In this document: positions 1,491-1,874 of the stretch, one piece after another
Position numbering within the stretch: position 1 is the first letter of the stretch
How the letters are laid out: each line of letters begins with the position of its first letter
Virus record (IMG/VR): IMGVR_UViG_3300036770_003480
Location: 1 to 36,433 of that record
Source: a virus
Direction: 5' to 3' (one strand)
Length of the DNA stretch: 36,433 nucleotides
Notes under the pieces: generated by a model
What the model was told of the DNA's origin: nothing
Database searches by the model: none
The model's input: only the letters and a program-made list of their open reading frames with translations
Made by a program: the position numbers and the translations under genes

Positions 1491-1874
1491 TGGTGGACCT
1501 GAGGGGAGTCGAACCCCTGTATTAACATCCTTCATCACAACATCTACATCTTGTTCCACTTTAGGTGGAGATACAATCATAATGGACGATAACTGTATCT
1601 TCTTAGTTTCTATTTCTCGCAGAAGGATGAGAAACTACTAAGTCAACTTCTGCCAGTCTAGTTATTACGGAGTGAGCTGCTACTAGACGTTCACAGGTCT
1701 CCGGAGTTGCTACAGGTTAATTAGTAGCTAAGAGCCATTACAGGAGCAAACATGTTGCTGAAGAAGGCTGCGACTCGGCTAAATAAAGATTTAGCAGTTA
1801 TTGTTTTTTTGGTTTTAGGTGACCAACCGATGCAGTTGAGACTCTGATATGCTAAGCGAAACCATGACAGGCCC
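1491..1874 (-). ncRNA. ssrA: Transfer-messenger RNA (tmRNA)
   Basis: 384-nt one-piece tmRNA, which rescues stalled ribosomes by acting as alanyl-tRNA and then as a short mRNA. The tRNA-like ends are clear: 5-prime GGGCCTG pairs with 3-prime CAGGTCC, followed by A-CCA. The T arm is AGGGG-TTCGACT-CCCCT and the 5-prime conserved segment is TCATGGTTTCG. TTAGCAT near the 5-prime end pairs with ATGTTAA near the 3-prime end as helix P2. A PK1-like CAAC/GTTG stem lies before the tag reading frame, whose resume codon follows ATAACT as in Bacillus tmRNA. The predicted tag runs from the GCT at 1795 to the TAA at 1723-1721. It is 24 codons long, starts AKSLFSRVAAFF and ends SNMFAPVMALSY. The stop lies in the loop of a GCTAC/GTAGC hairpin, the position it has in known tmRNAs. 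The usual ALAA degron is replaced by ALSY. A perfect sigma-A promoter precedes it. Confidence 0.93.

Follow-up and report, generated by a model that had tools for sequence, protein, structure and literature searches.

The window, that is the whole stretch of DNA analysed here, is a 36.4 kb piece of a tailed phage deposited as an IMG/VR virus record. Its genes include baseplate-wedge genes, a family A DNA polymerase, a DnaB-like helicase, RecA and a ribonucleotide reductase, and all three stop codons are in use (TAA 25, TAG 8, TGA 4). At 1959-2615 the window encodes a 218-aa protein of PHROG 3704 (labelled ferredoxin), which is found at ~70% identity in at least 80 viral contigs and is far more widespread and conserved than the adjoining genes. 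The minus strand carries a one-piece tmRNA gene (ssrA) with a tRNA gene one base beyond its CCA. The features are listed below, together with their state in four related viral contigs, L003-L006.

1491..1874, minus strand: complete one-piece tmRNA (ssrA), 384 nt, CCA encoded; Rfam RF00023, conserved in L003-L006
1868..1874, minus strand: 5′ strand of the acceptor stem, GGGCCUG, pairing with 1495-1501; 7/7 pairs kept in L003
1495..1501, minus strand: 3′ strand of the acceptor stem, CAGGUCC, followed by ACCA; read from the sequence
1810..1828, minus strand: pseudoknot 1, GGU[UGGU]C[ACC]UAAA[ACCA]; columns invariant against L006, pairing read by hand
1796..1800, minus strand: frame-setting UAACU ahead of the resume codon, with A at -4; from the sequence and the rule in PMC2481249
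1721..1795, minus strand: tag frame AKSLFSRVAAFFSNMFAPVMALSY plus UAA; conserved in L003-L006
1709..1728, minus strand: distal hairpin GCUAC/GUAGC, whose loop begins with the stop codon; compensatory GUUAC/GUAAC in L006
1413..1489, minus strand: tRNA-Glu(UUC), one base beyond the tmRNA CCA; same order in L003-L005

Anatomy and reading frame of the tmRNA gene

The preliminary description had proposed a complete tmRNA, and a covariance-model search bears this out. RF00023 covers the gene end to end (model positions 1-374 of 374, 92.7 bits, E 5e-35), against a gathering cut-off of 47 bits. ARAGORN, run on the window, did not report the tmRNA at 1491-1874 of the minus strand. The tRNA-like domain has the G3-U70 pair, a T arm and the CCA; both the CCA and G3-U70, the alanine identity pair of the acceptor stem, are encoded in the window and in L006. 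The D-loop of the window gene, UUCGCU, is atypical. A perfect 7-bp inverted repeat (GCTAAAT-CTTT-ATTTAGC, window 1778-1795) spans the resume codon and could hide it; the same repeat is found in L003-L005 and is absent from L006.

Reading from 1795 to 1721 gives exactly 24 sense codons followed by UAA, with the coordinates and length of tag originally put forward. The resume context is UA-ACU-GCU in the window, with U at -5 and A at -4, and CA-AAU-GGC in L006. A at -4 is a near-invariant determinant of the frame and U at -5 tolerates C (PMC2481249), and the earlier reading of this context fits the published rule. The stop codon likewise lies where it had been placed, in the loop of the GCUAC/GUAGC hairpin. 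A resume codon with A at -4, an open frame and a stop in the helix-5 loop are thus all present, as in one-piece tmRNAs; of the alternative frames, one stops after 1 codon and the other after 18 codons. Moreover, the frame is fixed by the relatives, since L003-L006 carry the same one. As first described, the tag has no ALAA and ends in ALSY, which holds for the window, L003-L005 and L006. A sequencing artefact or a wrong frame might mask an ALAA-like end, and a one-base shift does give a tag ending ..LLATN. However, the same frame is found in three other contigs and a diverged contig reaches MALSY by different codons, so that the probability of such an artefact is vanishingly small. A frame error hiding an ALAA-like end was rejected, as the relatives keep the frame.

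Relatives and selection on RNA and peptide

A scan of IMG/VR for the phage RecA returned 17 loci, and a tmRNA lies in the same neighbourhood in 4/17. The tmRNAs of L003-L005 are mutually identical as aligned, share 93.75% identity with that of the window and encode the tag AKSLFSRVSAFFSNLFAPVMALSY. L006 is a distant relative (RecA 75% identical) and has the tag GKSLINRVKSFFANLFKVGTPRMALSY. A viral scan for further MALSY tmRNAs, or for the same pseudoknot, found none besides these four relatives.

Between the window and L003 there are 24 differences, 8 of which are both halves of four compensatory pairs (26/347, 34/340, 174/205 and 278/303; the first two were read by hand from the list of window-L003 differences). 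In L006 the stop-codon hairpin is GUUAC/GUAAC, a compensatory change from C-G to U-A, and G3-U70 in the acceptor stem is kept in all relatives. At the level of the peptide, pS is 0.52 and pN 0.24 between the window and L006 tags, whose lengths differ by an in-frame 9-nt indel. Four nucleotide changes separate their last five codons, with MALSY kept (P 5e-4 under random substitution). Taken together, the compensated pairs, G3-U70 and the conserved tag indicate, at the level of sequence comparison, that RNA and peptide are both under selection. The anatomy, frame and conservation of the gene are likewise established in sequence.

A tmRNA taken from the host and now decaying, with its tag drifting, would account for a score of 92.7 bits, compared with about 120-160 bits for most bacterial tmRNAs of the group, and for the fast evolution seen as a long branch in the tmRNA tree. 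However, the compensatory pairs, the intact acceptor stem and CCA, the retention of pseudoknot 1 and the synonymous-biased change in the tag all speak against decay, which we consider very improbable.

Candidate host, its proteases and the tag end

A similarity search of named phage records for a host gave distant polymerase and tRNA-gene matches only. Against 84,980 species genomes, the phage RecA has a single relative, at 70-73% identity, on a contig of 126 kb that belongs to a yak-rumen MAG of Acholeplasmatales. The RecA gene of this contig (L130; MAG G029, contig C4, 94081-95268) has four in-frame TAG codons, suggesting that the contig may be a stop-codon-recoded relative of the window phage; the window has no in-frame TAG codons, and the difference counts against the link to this host. 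The MAG has its own tmRNA tags, GKTNLFARSNNMNAAFAC and AENNDYAFLAGRNTQANYAFC. Its two tmRNA genes with different tags (C84 65909-66296 and C56 4031-4427) may be genuine copies of one genome, or the bin may be mixed.

The phage tags are similar to a cluster of bacterial tags from the same phylum, to which ANKIKNAVANMFGTRQAVAFA, ANKAKNVLANMFGGNQAVAFA, GNKIKTVLANMFGSRQAVAFA and GKNFLANLFGGNRQVAFAA belong among others. For the L006 tag, the six best of 178 tags all fall in this cluster, with a best score of 40 that 0/500 shuffles reach. The window tag also finds most of its top matches in this cluster, but 99/500 shuffles equal the score and the match is not significant. When the window tmRNA was compared at the nucleotide level with 152 one-piece tmRNAs, the gene encoding GKNFLANLFGGNRQVAFAA matched best. 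In a tmRNA tree the phage genes form a clade with a support of 0.992, and have no supported position among the bacterial tmRNAs (0.59-0.64). From the one MAG contig and the resemblance of the tags we infer that the host is likely a bacterium of the phylum of this MAG, with Acholeplasmatales and relatives best supported.

ClpX was not found above the family cut-off in any of 24 genomes of Acholeplasmatales, the order of the MAG, or in any of the 10 genomes carrying phage-like tags; the same search gave about 665 bits in two other genomes of the phylum. Lon is present in 24/24 genomes of the order and in 9/10 of those with phage-like tags, and FtsH in 23/24 genomes of the order. Judged from these genomes, the candidate host group lacks ClpX and has Lon. 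ClpP is present in 13/24 genomes of the order and therefore another Clp unfoldase could take part. Mollicutes have no active ClpXP and their tags are read by Lon (PMC9382460). Since the candidate hosts have no ClpX, the phage would meet no ClpXP from which to escape, and in a ClpX-less, Lon-bearing host the missing ALAA is expected. The own tags of the candidate hosts are also mostly not ALAA-ended. The escape from ClpXP first suggested for this tag is thus not supported, and we rejected it as the leading account.

The phage tags carry neither the ALAA-type ClpXP degron (C-terminal LAA or a near relative) nor the (N)YAFA-like C-terminal motif of Lon-type Mollicutes tags; their end is MALSY. 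Tags from the order and phylum of the MAG end mostly in FAC, YAC, LAC, AFA, FAA or LAA. The 64 ARAGORN tags from IMG/VR tmRNAs are all A-, V- or G-ended, several of them without ALAA (APVAV, LATV, YAG), and among 178 distinct ARAGORN tags neither a Tyr end nor an -LSY end occurs. Bacterial tmRNAs of the group that ARAGORN missed were decoded by hand and include the Tyr-ended tags ANTQSYSFAY and GKNTNTIGVNSSTEQNIYSYVPASYSNYSSTLACY (...STLACY). The Tyr end therefore has bacterial precedent, and its being unique to the phage was rejected. MALSY was not found among the bacterial tags examined. On this comparison of tags it is the conserved LSY, and not the Tyr end as such, that is special to these phages. 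Among openly licensed papers, a literature search found none that deals with altered ends in phage tags. Because tmRNAs whose tags end atypically escape ARAGORN, surveys of tags from phages and from ClpX-less bacteria are probably biased toward A-ended tags.

Fate of tagged proteins and known systems

On balance we lean towards the view that the tmRNA is functional, that its phage infects mycoplasma-group bacteria and that its tag is of the Lon type and independent of ClpX. The phage would be large and tailed, with Acholeplasmatales and relatives as its hosts. In infected cells its tmRNA would be expressed and, as predicted, charged with alanine; together with host SmpB it would enter stalled ribosomes and release them by ordinary trans-translation, adding the 24-residue tag ending in MALSY to unfinished proteins. 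The tag would be of the long, ClpX-independent kind of this bacterial group, and degradation by the Lon (or FtsH) of the host, not survival, would be the most likely fate of the tagged fragments. The atypical D-loop and the inverted repeat over the resume codon count against this reading.

The preliminary description had spoken of tmRNA reprogramming by the phage. While its ClpXP form is not supported, a milder form remains, namely that MALSY is conserved where the bacterial tags closest in sequence have VAFA(A). Here, MALSY in place of VAFA or VAFAA would evade the host protease that reads the tag, so that phage fragments are spared or host quality control is titrated. MALSY is kept across diverged phages, the body of the tag is like that of bacterial tags with a different end, and the 178 distinct ARAGORN tags have no -LSY end. 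However, the ends of the group's bacterial tags vary widely (FAC, YAC, AFA, FAA, FAY, LACY) and the change to MALSY may therefore be neutral to Lon; the candidate hosts, moreover, have no ClpX. We regard such evasion as rather unlikely. It is also unlikely that a phage of ClpX-less bacteria has kept a host-type tag body and fixed a MALSY end such that ribosomes are freed and the protease fate of the product is altered.

The tag might instead direct rescued proteins to the membrane, resulting in degradation by FtsH or in disturbance of the membrane. All three versions of the tag have a hydrophobic, cationic, helix-like body (moment 0.50-0.63, net charge +2 to +5), and FtsH is encoded by nearly all candidate-host genomes (23/24). 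However, these moments are only mildly above those of shuffles (105-143/2000 reach them) and bacterial tags of the same phylum have similar bodies. The window tag had been called amphipathic; it is hydrophobic, but its moment of 0.50 is equalled by 105/2000 shuffles and the term is a weak one. Routing to the membrane is improbable.

Phage tmRNAs are usually seen as spare copies of that of the host. A tag that is selected as a peptide, and whose end is unlike those of the most similar bacterial tags, means that phage retuning of protein quality control can be asked about directly. On a 117 kb viral contig (L153, 4103-5307) a tmRNA and a ROOL RNA lie inside a dense tRNA array, and four other viral contigs have genes of 77-82 nt for the tRNA-like domain only, with no tag region (L139 3031-3110, L147 1209-1285, L161 46-127 and L183 182-258). 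The latter resemble the case of mycobacteriophage DS6A.

Bacillus phage G and the mycobacteriophages Bxz1 and Wildcat likewise have a complete one-piece tmRNA in a large phage genome (PMC4131195, PMC7474061). Compared with phage-encoded tags, that of the window is unlike any in the IMG/VR sample. Another close system is mf-ssrA/mf-Lon of Mesoplasma florum (PMC9382460), where the tag is long and without ALAA, like that of the phage, and the host group lacks ClpXP and has kept Lon. That tag ends in AFA whereas the phage tag ends in MALSY, and the phage version is a phage gene for which reading by Lon is predicted. In the same phylum, ClpX-less bacteria have tmRNAs whose tags (ANKIKNAVANMFGTRQAVAFA, GKNFLANLFGGNRQVAFAA) share with the phage tag a K-containing start, a FANLF/NMF core and R/Q before the end. 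These bacterial genes, however, are chromosomal and their tags end in VAFA or VAFAA, where those of the phages end in MALSY.
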